Shown here in pieces: positions 1 to 19,805 of a stretch of DNA of 42,609 nt (the first letter of the stretch is position 1; each line of letters starts with the position of its first letter). The DNA is from Candidatus Hydrothermarchaeota archaeon (GTDB taxonomy: Archaea; Hydrothermarchaeota; Hydrothermarchaeia; Hydrothermarchaeales; BMS3B), in contig WANW01000023.1 of the NCBI GenBank assembly GCA_015521615.1, forward strand, positions 1 through 42,609, read 5' to 3'. Under the pieces are notes generated by a model. The model worked only from the letters and a program-made list of their open reading frames with translations, was not told the DNA's origin and made no database searches. Made by a program: the position numbers and the translations under genes.

Positions 1-898
1 CCTGCCCGAGTGGGATGTGAAGCACCACCCACTCTGTTGCATACTTTGAGGCTTTTCTTGTTTTTCTGAAAAACTTCTCATAGAAGCACAAGAGCGTGCT
101 GTACTCCCCTGGCGTGTTTTCAACCTCATCCCTGCCAATCTGAACTCTTATATTTGAATATCTTTCTGAGCTATTTAGAAGAGCCCTGCAACTCTCTTTA
201 AACTCTATAAGCTCACCGAGTGAGTTCATTTTCGGCAAAAATATCAAAGCTTTTCCAGTTTCTAAAAATGTCCTGTATATCAGCCCTGTATCTGCCCACA
301 CCAAAATTCCCAGAAAGTAGCACTTCGGGCAGAAGTTTTCAAAGTACTCCTTAAATGAATATCTCTCTCCATCTTTATATGACCTCACCCCACTTAAGCT
401 CTTAATTTTTGTGACAAGGGGATAGGAAGCCTGCTGGAGTTTTTTATATGGCTTATAAAATCTTTCACCGCACACAATGCAGGTTTCGTTGCCATCTCTG
501 ACGGCCAAATCCACAATTTTCTTTACAGCATCTATAACTTTATCCTGTGAGTAGATATCCTCCTTAAAGGCAACAATTCCGCCAACTTTCTTATTCTCTT
601 GAATCATTATAAAATCCTTCTTAATCTCCTTTTTCTCTCCTGTTTTATCATCCTCCCCCCATACGACAAGATTGTGACGGATGTTTTTTATTGCAATCCC
701 GAGCTGATGGGAGAATTTATCAATATCGCCTACAGAGATTGTCAACATAAAATCGTTTGCATATACATCTACATCCAGGTATTCCTGATTTTCTTTGAGC
801 AATTTTATCAGATATTCCAAGCCGTTGTCTAGCCAAGGGTTGTTATTAAGTGGAAAAGTTAATGTCTTCCCAACCGCCACACTCTCACTCCGGGGCAT
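1..898 (-). CDS. Type I CRISPR-associated Cas8-like large subunit (Cst1 / CXXC-CXXC-like), truncated by left window edge
   Basis: Manual translation of the - strand from ATG at 898 (GGAGGGGG upstream) is open to position 1: MPRSESVAVGKTLTFPLNNNPWLDNGLEYLIKLLKE...ETCIVCGERF...ENFCPKCYF... N-terminal NPWLDNGLEYL and two CXXC motifs resemble the CXXC-CXXC Cas8 group; a Cas6 gene lies nearby on the same strand. Confidence 0.55.
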   Translation of the reverse strand, partial: MPRSESVAVGKTLTFPLNNNPWLDNGLEYLIKLLKENQEYLDVDVYANDFMLTISVGDIDKFSHQLGIAIKNIRHNLVVWGEDDKTGEKKEIKKDFIMIQENKKVGGIVAFKEDIYSQDKVIDAVKKIVDLAVRDGNETCIVCGERFYKPYKKLQQASYPLVTKIKSLSGVRSYKDGERYSFKEYFENFCPKCYFLGILVWADTGLIYRTFLETGKALIFLPKMNSLGELIEFKESCRALLNSSERYSNIRVQIGRDEVENTPGEYSTLLCFYEKFFRKTRKASKYATEWVVLHIPLGQ

Positions 899-1336: not shown

Positions 1337-1819
1337 GTGAGCATAACACAAAAATTGGCTATTCTATATGCTATCCTCATAACCCTCGGCACAGCAGGTG
1401 CGCAGATGATGGGCTATAGAGAGGGCGGCTATGGAATGATGGGCGCTCCTGGCTATGGCTTTGAGCCCAACACGAGCTACTACTCTTACCGGGGCTATCA
1501 GACCTACCCCTATGGGTACGGAGGTATGCCCATGGGCGGATATGGTATGATGGGTGGTTACGGTATGATGGGCGGCATGATGCCGATGATGGGTGGCTAT
1601 GGCGGAGGTATGATGGGAGCTTATCCCGGCTATGGGATGGGCTACTCCGGTGGCTGGCTCCTGCTTCTTCTCATAGCCGTGGCAGTGGTTCTAATTTACT
1701 ACGCAAGGGGTAAGGAAGCTGCCCCTTCGAGTGCAAAGGATATCCTGGACATGAGGCTCGCGAGGGGCGAGATAACCCTGGAGGAGTACCAGAGGCTCAG
1801 AGAGGTGATTGAGGGATGA
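1337..1819 (+). CDS. Secreted/membrane Gly-Tyr-Met-repeat protein with C-terminal TM helix and SHOCT-like domain
   Basis: N-terminal signal-like segment; GGYGMMGGYGMMGGMMPMMGGYGGGMMG repeats; TM GGWLLLLLIAVAVVLIYYA; C-term DILDMRLARGEITLEEYQRLREVIEG fits SHOCT. Confidence 0.7.
   Translation: MSITQKLAILYAILITLGTAGAQMMGYREGGYGMMGAPGYGFEPNTSYYSYRGYQTYPYGYGGMPMGGYGMMGGYGMMGGMMPMMGGYGGGMMGAYPGYGMGYSGGWLLLLLIAVAVVLIYYARGKEAAPSSAKDILDMRLARGEITLEEYQRLREVIEG
1527..1620 (+). repeat. Imperfect tandem repeat encoding GGYGMM-type units
   Basis: ggatatggtatgatgggtggttacggtatgatgggcggc repeated units; similar units at 2461-2520 in the third gene. Confidence 0.7.
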
Positions 1820-2382
1820 AGCGCGGGATAGCGCTGATAATTGCAGCGGTTCTCGTATTCCTTGCAGTTGGGCTCTACTCGCAGTACTCCTACTACAGGG
1901 CGACTCCGCTCTATGGTGGTGGCATGCCCATGATGGGCACCCCCTATCAGGGGGCGCAGCCCGGCTATGCGAAGCCAGCGCCGCAGGTGCGCTTCTCCTC
2001 AAACGGTAAGATGATTTACTTCACCGGCGTGGACATGGAAGGCAACCGCATCCTGCCCAAGTACGGCGGACCCATGTGGCTGTACATGCACGGTGGAAGC
2101 TGTGTATCCTGCCACGGCGAAGACGGCAGGGGAGGCAGGCCGGTGATGATGTGCTCAGAGATTCCGCCGGACATAAGGTACAGTACGTTGACCAGCGAGG
2201 AGATGGAGCACGAGGGCGAGGAGGAGCATCCTCCCTACAACGAAACGACGATTAAGCGTGCCATAACCGAGGGTTTAAACCCCGCCGGCGAGGAGCTTGA
2301 CCCGTGCATGCCCAGATGGGAGATAAACGACAGAGACCTGAACGATCTGATTCTTTTCCTGAAGGAGCTCGACAGGAGGTGA
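1816..2382 (+). CDS. Membrane-anchored mono-heme c-type cytochrome
   Basis: N-terminal TM, single CVSCH heme motif in GGSCVSCHGEDGRGG, C-terminal helix DRDLNDLILFLKELDRR typical of class I cytochrome c; 4-nt overlap with upstream gene. Confidence 0.8.
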   Translation: MKRGIALIIAAVLVFLAVGLYSQYSYYRATPLYGGGMPMMGTPYQGAQPGYAKPAPQVRFSSNGKMIYFTGVDMEGNRILPKYGGPMWLYMHGGSCVSCHGEDGRGGRPVMMCSEIPPDIRYSTLTSEEMEHEGEEEHPPYNETTIKRAITEGLNPAGEELDPCMPRWEINDRDLNDLILFLKELDRR

Positions 2383-2387
2383 ATGAT

Positions 2388-2609
2388 TTGGCGAAAAACG
2401 ACAAGCTTGTGGCTGGGGTAATACTGACCGTTATCGGACTGCTCGGATTGAGCTCAGGTGGCATGATGGGCTACGGTGGAATGATGGGTGGCTACGGGAT
2501 GATGGGCGGCTACGGAATGGGTTTTGGCTTCTTCCCGCTGCTGATCAGTGCGGTGTTCCTGGGCATAACCCTCTTTGGGGTGTACCTGATATATGAGGCA
2601 GTGAAGTAA
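2388..2609 (+). CDS. Small membrane protein with (GGYGMM)n repeats
   Basis: LAKNDKLVAGVILTVIGLLGLSSGGMMGYGGMMGGYGMMGGYGMGFGFFPLLISAVFLGITLFGVYLIYEAVK; likely TTG start at 2388 after SD AGGAGG (ORF track start 2304 overlaps cytochrome gene). Confidence 0.65.
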   Translation: MAKNDKLVAGVILTVIGLLGLSSGGMMGYGGMMGGYGMMGGYGMGFGFFPLLISAVFLGITLFGVYLIYEAVK

Positions 2610-3055: not shown

Positions 3056-3799
3056 TCACCTCCCAACCTTCACCTCCATAAACCCGAAGCCGAGGCTGTT
3101 CCTCTCCCCGAAGCCCGCGTCGATGCCAAAGCGCAGCAGCTCGCGCTGCTCCTTCGTTAGGTGCGAAAAGTGGAACTCCCACAGCGAGCCAAAGACGCGC
3201 ACCTCGCGGTTTTTAATCAAGAGGTGGTTGCATACCTGCTTCTTGAAAACAAACTGCTGGAATAGGGGCAGGTAGCGCTTCTCTTCCAGCTCCTCGCCAA
3301 GGAAACGCTTATACTTCTTAACAAGATTGTCCTCGAGCTGGCGCAGGAAGGCGTCGAAGGCTATGTTCGGGCGCCAGAAGACGTAGCTGTGCTCACTGGT
3401 GATGCCATACCTTGCGTAGCTGCGCCTCGGGATGCGCACTATTATTGGAGTCCTCGTGACAAGCGTGGTGGAGCGCCCTATTCGCGGAGACGCTATTCTG
3501 AGCTCCTTCAGCGCAAACTGCATGGCACCTATGCTGACACTCTCCCGCTGCAGCAGCGCTTCGGCAAAGGTTCGGATAAGCTCATTATCCGGCGAGGAGA
3601 TTGCCAGGTAGCGTGTATCTCCCGCGGCAATGTCAGCAGGCGGGTATATGTTTGAGAAGCAGAAGTACTTGTAACCCCTGAGGTCGTGCAGGTGCTCGTA
3701 GGCGGTGCCCTTAAGCAGCGAGTACACGAAACCCTGAAGCTTGGCATGGTAGCGCAGGTCGTAGGCGTAGTCGCCAGCGCTCTCAAGCGTAAGTATCAG
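3056..3799 (-). CDS. cas6: CRISPR repeat endoribonuclease Cas6
   Basis: C-terminal glycine-rich GFGERNSLGFGFMEVKV and the overall size fit Cas6. The track starts at internal ATG 3727, but the frame is open to 3811 and encodes (I)SRLILTLESAGDYAYDLRYHAKLQGFVYS, a typical Cas6 N-terminus. Confidence 0.8.
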   Translation of the reverse strand: MILTLESAGDYAYDLRYHAKLQGFVYSLLKGTAYEHLHDLRGYKYFCFSNIYPPADIAAGDTRYLAISSPDNELIRTFAEALLQRESVSIGAMQFALKELRIASPRIGRSTTLVTRTPIIVRIPRRSYARYGITSEHSYVFWRPNIAFDAFLRQLEDNLVKKYKRFLGEELEEKRYLPLFQQFVFKKQVCNHLLIKNREVRVFGSLWEFHFSHLTKEQRELLRFGIDAGFGERNSLGFGFMEVKVGR

Positions 3800-18587: not shown

Positions 18588-19805
18588 TCACGGAAAGCTT
18601 CTGTATACCCAGGTATCGCTCTCTGCAGCCTTGGGCTCTGTGTAAACGTCATTCTCCACTCTGCCTCCATTAAAGCTCCACATGCCCCCTCCTCCTCCCA
18701 TACCCCCTCCACCCATGCCTCCATGACACACTGAGCAGTCGCCGTGGCAGGTAGCGCACTGGCTCATCGAAGAAAGACCTGCATGGTTGTTGTAGCGGTG
18801 GCAGCCTGTGCACAGGTCGCCGATGAGCCTCCTTGTAACTTTCTGAGATACATCATGGTAGAACTGCGTTGAGTTGTGCCCACCTCTCGTGTGAGGCTCA
18901 TTGCCCAGGGGATAGGGACCCGAGTTGTTGTGGCAGGTCAGGCAGGTTAGCTTGAGCGCAGCATGCACAGCTGAGGAGTTCAGGTTGTAGTTGTAGTAGG
19001 GTGCACCTGCATAAATATCAAGACTCGCATTCTTGTGGCAACTCCTGCAGTAGGCGTCGGTGGCTCCGCCATAGCTGGAATTGTCGTGGCCAGGGTGATA
19101 GGGTGAGTTTGAAGGTAGATTGTACAACGTACCTGTGTCGTTCACATCGCCAGCGTGCTGCGAGCCATTGGCATTGCCGATATTCCCCAGCTTTATACGG
19201 ATGTGGCACCTCACGCAGCTTATGTCCGAGATGTTCTTCCAGAAGTGGGTACTCCCGCCTTCGTTCTTTATCTCCACTGTATAGCTCCTCTGTGGCCCTG
19301 TAATCACACTCTCTATGTTGTACAGGTAGGTCTCACCGCCGTCCGGAGATGTCACGTTGTTGTATATTGTATAGTTTATGTATTCATAATAAAGAAGGGT
19401 TATGTTTGCGGAGTAGTTGGTGTGGCACATTAAACACGCCTCATTGGGGCCTCTACGTATCTTGTAATTCTCGGCGGTCCTGAAGAGTGGCATGTGCGCC
19501 TCGTAGCTGCTGTTTATCTTGCTCACAACACTGGTATGGCAGTCTATGCAGCGTGGTATGCTCGCTGCATGCGCCTCCTGCCCGGGAGAGAAGGTGGTAT
19601 TGTGGCAAGTCCTGCAGCTGAGGTTGGAGTGATATATGGATAACGAAAGGTTACCCGCCTCCTCTGCATGGCACTTGGTGCAGTCAACATTTTTGCCGGG
19701 TATGAAAGAGTGCTGACCTGTGAACATTGAGAGAGGGAAGGATACGCTTAAAATTAGAAGAGCTATAATTCCAATCCCGAGGATTGTAATTTTTAAAAGC
19801 CCCAT
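18588..19805 (-). CDS. Decaheme c-type cytochrome with Gly/Met-rich segment
   Basis: 10 CXXCH motifs: CTKCH, CRTCH, CIDCH, CLMCH, CVRCH, CRSCH, CLTCH, CTGCH, CATCH, CSVCH; N-terminal signal/TM; GGMGGGGMGGGGGMW. Confidence 0.92.
   Translation of the reverse strand: MGLLKITILGIGIIALLILSVSFPLSMFTGQHSFIPGKNVDCTKCHAEEAGNLSLSIYHSNLSCRTCHNTTFSPGQEAHAASIPRCIDCHTSVVSKINSSYEAHMPLFRTAENYKIRRGPNEACLMCHTNYSANITLLYYEYINYTIYNNVTSPDGGETYLYNIESVITGPQRSYTVEIKNEGGSTHFWKNISDISCVRCHIRIKLGNIGNANGSQHAGDVNDTGTLYNLPSNSPYHPGHDNSSYGGATDAYCRSCHKNASLDIYAGAPYYNYNLNSSAVHAALKLTCLTCHNNSGPYPLGNEPHTRGGHNSTQFYHDVSQKVTRRLIGDLCTGCHRYNNHAGLSSMSQCATCHGDCSVCHGGMGGGGMGGGGGMWSFNGGRVENDVYTEPKAAESDTWVYRSFP

Follow-up and report, generated by a model that had tools for sequence, protein, structure and literature searches.

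An anchored cytochrome c operon with Met-rich partners in Candidatus Pyrohabitans, and the linkage of its cytochrome family to copper ATPases

The window analysed here, a stretch of 42,609 nucleotides from a Candidatus Pyrohabitans (Hydrothermarchaeota) genome, carries a small operon of three co-directional genes that encode a Met/Gly/Tyr-rich SHOCT protein, a monoheme cytochrome c and a small Met-rich membrane protein. We cautiously favour the view that this operon is an envelope copper-handling accessory of the CopB-type (P1B-3) export kind, working without oxygen. A copper-linked function of the module is reasonably probable, since the cytochrome family is linked to copper ATPases; a specific electron transfer step from Cu(I) to heme is at best a tentative proposal. 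The features on which the analysis draws are the following, in window coordinates.

1262-1275, + strand: probable archaeal promoter read from the sequence, with a BRE-like CGAAAG (1262-1267) and the TATA box TATAAATA (1268-1275).
1321-1326, + strand: Shine-Dalgarno sequence AGGAGG of gene 1; AAGGAGG is invariant in the four aligned congeners.
1337-1819, + strand: gene 1, 160 aa from a GTG start; predicted secreted or anchored Met/Gly/Tyr-rich ectodomain, C-terminal TM helix and cytoplasmic SHOCT tail.
1742-1810, + strand: SHOCT domain of gene 1, 28.3 bits in the genome scan, over the cut-off.
1816-2382, + strand: gene 2, 188 aa; N-terminally anchored monoheme class I-like cytochrome c.
2101-2115, + strand: heme c attachment site CVSCH (Cys96, Cys99, His100); Cys, Cys and His are invariant in 51 homologues.
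2146-2151, + strand: Met111-Met112 pair, a candidate metal site; each Met is present in 49 of 51 homologues.
2308-2310, + strand: Met165 of MPRW, probable axial heme ligand by comparison with class I cytochromes; invariant in 51 homologues.
2374-2380, + strand: Shine-Dalgarno sequence AGGAGGT of gene 3.
2388-2609, + strand: gene 3, 73 aa from a TTG start behind AGGAGGT; two TM helices with a Met/Gly/Tyr loop between them.
2621-2650, + strand: possible transcription end after gene 3, a 10-bp perfect inverted repeat with T-runs.

The gene order, coordinates and tight linkage reported in the initial annotation were recovered: genes 1 and 2 overlap by 4 nt (ATGA), and 5 nt separate gene 2 from gene 3. 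For gene 3, a GTG at 2379 is a possible alternative start that would create a second 4-nt overlap, as in the congeners G001 and G002. The BRE/TATA block TGGGCGAAAGTATAtATAC upstream of the operon is kept in G001 and largely in G002. An AT-rich, near-perfect palindrome located between promoter and gene 1 (AAATTAAATAGTTTAATTT, 1290-1308) was considered as an operator and rejected, the congeners being devoid of it. Sigma-70 and terminator scans returned nothing above chance, and Rfam gave no match anywhere in the window. Comparison with G001 and G002 shows purifying selection on each of the three genes (dS 0.14-0.89, dN 0.014-0.12, ratios about 0.04-0.24), from which we conclude that these low-complexity frames are real genes. 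The GGYGMM repeats also exceed those of shuffled sequences, as composition-preserving shuffles of gene 1 gave a mean of 0.09 and a maximum of 2 matches of at least five of the six letters. In the 1.8-Mb genome, the GGYGMM-coding pattern GGNTAYGGNATGATG has four matches, all of them inside this operon.

CRISPR genes flank the operon on either side. A type I-B Cas8b gene at 5-898 (- strand; PADLOC E 1e-96) is cut by the window edge, and a Cas6 gene (PF01881) lies at 3056-3727 (- strand), its aligned start being ATA, with no usual start codon where its homologues begin. A CRISPR or defence role of the three genes was nevertheless rejected; PADLOC gives no match to them and the flanks differ between congeners, and the neighbourhood is therefore taken as incidental. 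Further along the window are found an anchored PepSY-domain protein (PF03413; 15334-15789, - strand) and a Cytochrome_C7/MtrC-like multiheme cytochrome (18588-19805, - strand) with a Gly/Met-rich stretch near its C-terminus (GGMGGGGMGGGGGM).

In the gene 1 product, a hydrophobic segment at the N-terminus precedes about 80 residues rich in Met, Gly and Tyr, which are followed by a single TM helix and the SHOCT tail; 11% of the protein is Met, 22% Gly and 12.5% Tyr. It was initially described as a GGYGMM-repeat TM protein with a SHOCT-like tail, a description which stands: there are three exact copies of the repeat, the Met clusters lie in the putatively exported segment, and the C-terminal domain matches SHOCT (PF09851), marginally by hmmscan (E 6.6e-6, 26.1 bits against a cut-off of 27) and above the cut-off in the genome scan, where its orthologues in G001 and G002 also reach or exceed it. 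The description of gene 3 as a small two-TM GGYGMM protein is likewise confirmed by its two hydrophobic segments and intervening Met/Gly/Tyr loop, with one exact and one near copy of the repeat; orthologues are found in G001-G004. By the positive-inside rule, the Met-rich segments of genes 1 and 3 as well as the heme are predicted to face outwards.

The gene 2 product matches PF00034 (26.6 bits against a cut-off of 21.3) and contains a single CxxCH. Its family belongs to the class I-type c cytochromes, heme ligation being predicted from the conserved residues. Near the heme ligands, His92 is kept in 48 of 51 homologues. Tyr122 and Asp119 are also kept, and the front of the protein carries the family signature SNGExIYYTG...GGPxWLYxHGGSCVSCHG. 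The anchored monoheme cytochrome with a GGGMPMMG segment noted at first is present in full, but the GGGMPMMG linker is not kept outside the genus. An AlphaFold model, whose pLDDT was 56 with 13 sequences and 83 with 51, shows an N-terminal helix at residues 2-29, which a linker joins to a single heme domain. The PDB fold search with this model gave weak cytochrome c matches alone, none below E 0.3, and profile comparison matched the cytochrome subunit of fructose dehydrogenase (7w2j, E 1.5e-6). Identity with CcoP/FixP of cbb3 oxidases was rejected (TIGR00782, 13 bits against a cut-off of 180), and domain and profile searches with the three operon proteins found no match to multicopper oxidases. 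Heme c maturation genes (PF01578) are present in the genome. A plasmid search with the cytochrome gave distant matches alone, of at most about 39% identity and mostly unannotated.

Far from being confined to this genome, the exact trio occurs throughout the genus, the nearest named relative being Ca. Pyrohabitans jungbluthii JdFR-16 (Hydrothermarchaeota). The relatives search returned four congeners, and each of them carries the cytochrome with a SHOCT gene upstream and a small Met-rich gene downstream, amid differing flanking genes. Gene 1 is less Met-rich in G003 and G004, so that the architecture seems better kept than the exact repeat. Outside the genus the trio gives way to a core made of the cytochrome with a SHOCT protein, a copper ATPase or both. 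A profile of the conserved cytochrome domain detected the family in 70 of 397 genomes of the archaeal phylum of G050. ANME-2 and Methanoperedens also have it, as do some Chloroflexota; in the phylum of an Anaerolineales contig, 12 of 301 genomes matched, with lower scores. It is frequent in ANME-2/Methanoperedens, Methanosarcinaceae-like and Archaeoglobaceae-like genomes.

The principal evidence for copper comes from the neighbourhoods of these homologues. Of 39 genomes, 19 have a TIGR01511 copper ATPase gene no further than 5 kb from that of the cytochrome, whereas the TIGR01511 matches and sizes of the 39 predict 0.5 by chance. Counted by genus, the linkage holds in 12 of 21 genera from three archaeal families, with a Poisson P of about 2e-15; this is a rough value, given the shared ancestry of the genera and the manual transfer of coordinates. 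Among 54 loci, 18 have a P-type metal ATPase and 20 a SHOCT protein within 5 kb, where a hand estimate based on 1-5 SHOCT genes per 2-Mb genome predicts one to two of the latter by chance; about 22 loci have neither a copper ATPase nor a SHOCT gene within that distance. The SHOCT partners in homologous loci carry Met/Gly/aromatic-rich segments, and the 4-nt SHOCT/cytochrome overlap is identical in nine loci from four archaeal families (the window, L013-L016, L020, L022, L071 and L072).

A CPH motif and a His-rich N-terminus characterise most of the linked pumps, which share 63-75% identity with the CopB-type ATPase of G178. This genome, which we take to be A. fulgidus, has its pump and cytochrome about 33 kb apart. 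Others are CopA-type (CPC), and one has no recognised motif. CPH and a His-rich N-terminus define the P1B-3 group, whose members include the characterised copper ATPase CopB of A. fulgidus (PMC5552934), so that most linked pumps fit the CopB definition. The association extends to Chloroflexota, where three loci show, each on one strand, the orders cytochrome-SHOCT-CopB (L111), CopB-Met/Gly/Tyr protein-cytochrome (L107) and CopB-cytochrome (L108), with pumps 52-64% identical to the archaeal one. In G021 (L021, 10132-12097), a further copper ATPase gene, directly after those of the cytochrome and a small protein, is broken by stops or a frameshift, through decay, assembly error or recoding. Four other loci (L044, L047, L048 and L052) have near the cytochrome an ArsR-like regulator, short membrane proteins of the MMGYGMYGGYG type and a Gly/Met-rich exported protein of about 165 aa. 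The idea of copper handling, raised at first from the Met-rich repeats and their pairing with a cytochrome, thus gains strong indirect support from the conserved linkage of P1B copper ATPase genes to this cytochrome across three archaeal families as well as Chloroflexota, but no copper ATPase was found beside the Pyrohabitans operon: the adjacent CPH/His-rich ATPase that marks P1B-3 efflux operons is present in homologous loci and absent here.

The Pyrohabitans genome does encode four copper-type ATPases, all of them away from the operon. Its CPH-type CopB is found on contig C33 (L079, 1371-3629). A gene for a FixO-like diheme cytochrome, which combines FixO with a second cytochrome c domain (L079, 282-1280), precedes it by 91 bp and makes an independent pairing of cytochrome and copper pump; the CopB of the congener G001 has no FixO-like gene in front. 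One of the other SHOCT genes of the genome sits by genes for a 315-aa permease-like and an ArsR-like protein, both assigned by eye. The CopB location lends itself to another reading, in which the cytochrome donates electrons to a heme-copper oxidase or N2O reductase, or the Met-rich proteins deliver copper to it, while the pump supplies copper for assembly. The heme-copper oxidase-type (PF00115) proteins present in the Pyrohabitans genus make this a serious rival, and a cupredoxin/COX2-like gene, assigned by eye, lies near the G012 cytochrome. We still hold it to be unlikely, given that G448, G178 and G021 keep the cytochrome and have no PF00115 protein, and that the linked pumps are mainly of the CopB type, known for resistance.

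For strict anaerobes, copper comes in the more toxic Cu(I) state, and the oxygen-dependent copper oxidases known from aerobes are of no use to them. If the operon is a copper-handling accessory, a CopB-type pump (in this genome, that of contig C33) would place copper outside the membrane, where the predicted outward-facing Met/Gly/Tyr segments of genes 1 and 3 would catch Cu(I). The anchored cytochrome c would then exchange an electron with the captured copper, the heme most likely taking the electron and converting Cu(I) to the less permeable Cu(II), and would hand it to the membrane electron-transfer chain; the inner SHOCT tail may anchor or assemble the complex. That cytochrome and Met-rich scaffolds together make up an oxygen-independent cuprous oxidase, whose heme feeds the electron of CopB-exported Cu(I) into the respiratory or methanogenic chain, is a speculative possibility. 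Low-complexity stretches rich in Met, Gly and Tyr do not necessarily bind copper. For many years the P1B-3 group was taken to be Cu(II)-specific, whereas the title of a paper from 2018, cited in PMC7558416, calls CopB Cu(+)-specific. Another soft metal (silver, mercury, gold or cadmium), or reduction of Cu(II) before uptake in place of oxidation of exported Cu(I), is the reading to which we give the lowest probability of all; by sequence it is inseparable from the copper one. In Sulfolobus, a role of CopB in silver resistance has been suggested, and Haloferax has a silver-induced SHOCT membrane protein, which is suggestive only.

The main competing proposal concerns electron export. In the genome G448, presumably M. 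acetivorans, the sole family member has one heme and is likely MA0167; the gene just upstream encodes a CopB-type pump. MA0167 is the only monoheme c-type cytochrome listed for M. acetivorans (PMC6703419). It rises about 6-fold during AQDS respiration (PMC6703419), which is not a copper signal, and is higher in DIET; both would suit an extracellular conduit, the alternative put forward in the initial annotation. In such a conduit, the cytochrome and the aromatic proteins rich in Met and Tyr would pass electrons through the envelope and on to minerals or partners. The frequency of the family in ANME-2/Methanoperedens, Methanosarcinaceae-like and Archaeoglobaceae-like genomes, the multiheme cytochrome elsewhere in the window, and the proposal by other authors that Hydrothermarchaeota cytochromes serve proton-gradient formation or extracellular ferric reduction all point the same way. 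However, deletion of MA0167 left AQDS reduction, electron uptake from Fe(0) and direct electron uptake from Geobacter unchanged (PMC6703419, PMC10989991, PMC8546582), which largely refutes the conduit for MA0167 and makes electron export improbable as the core role of the family. Moreover, gene 2 encodes a single CxxCH and a single TM anchor, the operon has no conserved multiheme or porin partner, and the conduit leaves the CopB linkage unexplained. We thus consider the conduit quite unlikely for the operon as well, and the MA0167 deletions lead us to favour an envelope copper-handling accessory over it.

MA0167 has also been proposed as a sensor, as has a monoheme cytochrome of Geobacter (PMC6703419). 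A heme or metal sensor cytochrome with a SHOCT scaffold, signalling the redox or metal state of the envelope, would agree with the small ArsR-like regulators near some homologues, but the operon has no signalling domain and these regulators are not constant neighbours, so we regard a sensor as very unlikely.

Taken together, the repeated occurrence of the cytochrome family beside a copper-export pump, in methanogens, Archaeoglobus-type archaea, methane oxidisers and Chloroflexota, suggests, as far as genomic context can tell, an oxygen-independent copper-handling device that is as yet undescribed. A cytochrome c family tied to CopB across archaea and bacteria is a concrete candidate for how anaerobes cope with copper. 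If the proposal is correct, methanogens, ANME archaea, Archaeoglobi-like archaea, Hydrothermarchaeota and some Chloroflexota would share a cytochrome-based cuprous oxidase, the anaerobic counterpart of CueO and other multicopper oxidases (MCO). MA0167, whose reported deletions left electron transfer intact, would gain a testable function, and cytochromes of this kind in ANME or Hydrothermarchaeota genomes could be interpreted in terms of metal handling as well as electron export. The literature searched, which covers few subscription journals, contains no description of the module, in line with what was first supposed, although this is weak evidence of novelty and MA0167 itself is a catalogued cytochrome.

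Compared with known systems, gene 2 shares with class I c-type cytochromes (PF00034; 7w2j) the CxxCH and a distal Met in a C-terminal MPRW, and differs from the 7w2j type by its single domain, its SNGExIYYTG...GGPxWLYxHGG extension, its N-terminal anchor and the lack of a dehydrogenase partner. Gene 1 ends in SHOCT like other proteins with this domain (PF09851), to which it adds a long Met/Gly/Tyr ectodomain and a conserved pairing with a cytochrome. MA0167 (PMC6703419) probably belongs to the same family as gene 2 and has one heme, but its locus in G448, unlike the trio operon, has no SHOCT partner within 5 kb. In Nitratiruptor, a copper-induced cytochrome c gene lies beside a Cu/Zn exporter. 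In aerobes, the partner of CopB is a multicopper oxidase or a lipoprotein that binds copper. The copB-mco and copXL operons of S. aureus (PMC10233261), which encode the oxidase or the lipoprotein CopL, share with the pump-linked loci described here a P1B-3 ATPase combined with an envelope protein. The proposed role would parallel that of the oxygen-using oxidases, with partners that are not homologous: the redox partner here is a cytochrome c, whereas the S. aureus oxidase needs oxygen, and the Pyrohabitans pump gene is not adjacent. CopG, an envelope protein tied to copper export that adds anaerobic copper resistance and is a proposed Cu(I) oxidiser, differs in having a thioredoxin-like domain and a tetranuclear Cu cluster and no heme (PMC7558416).
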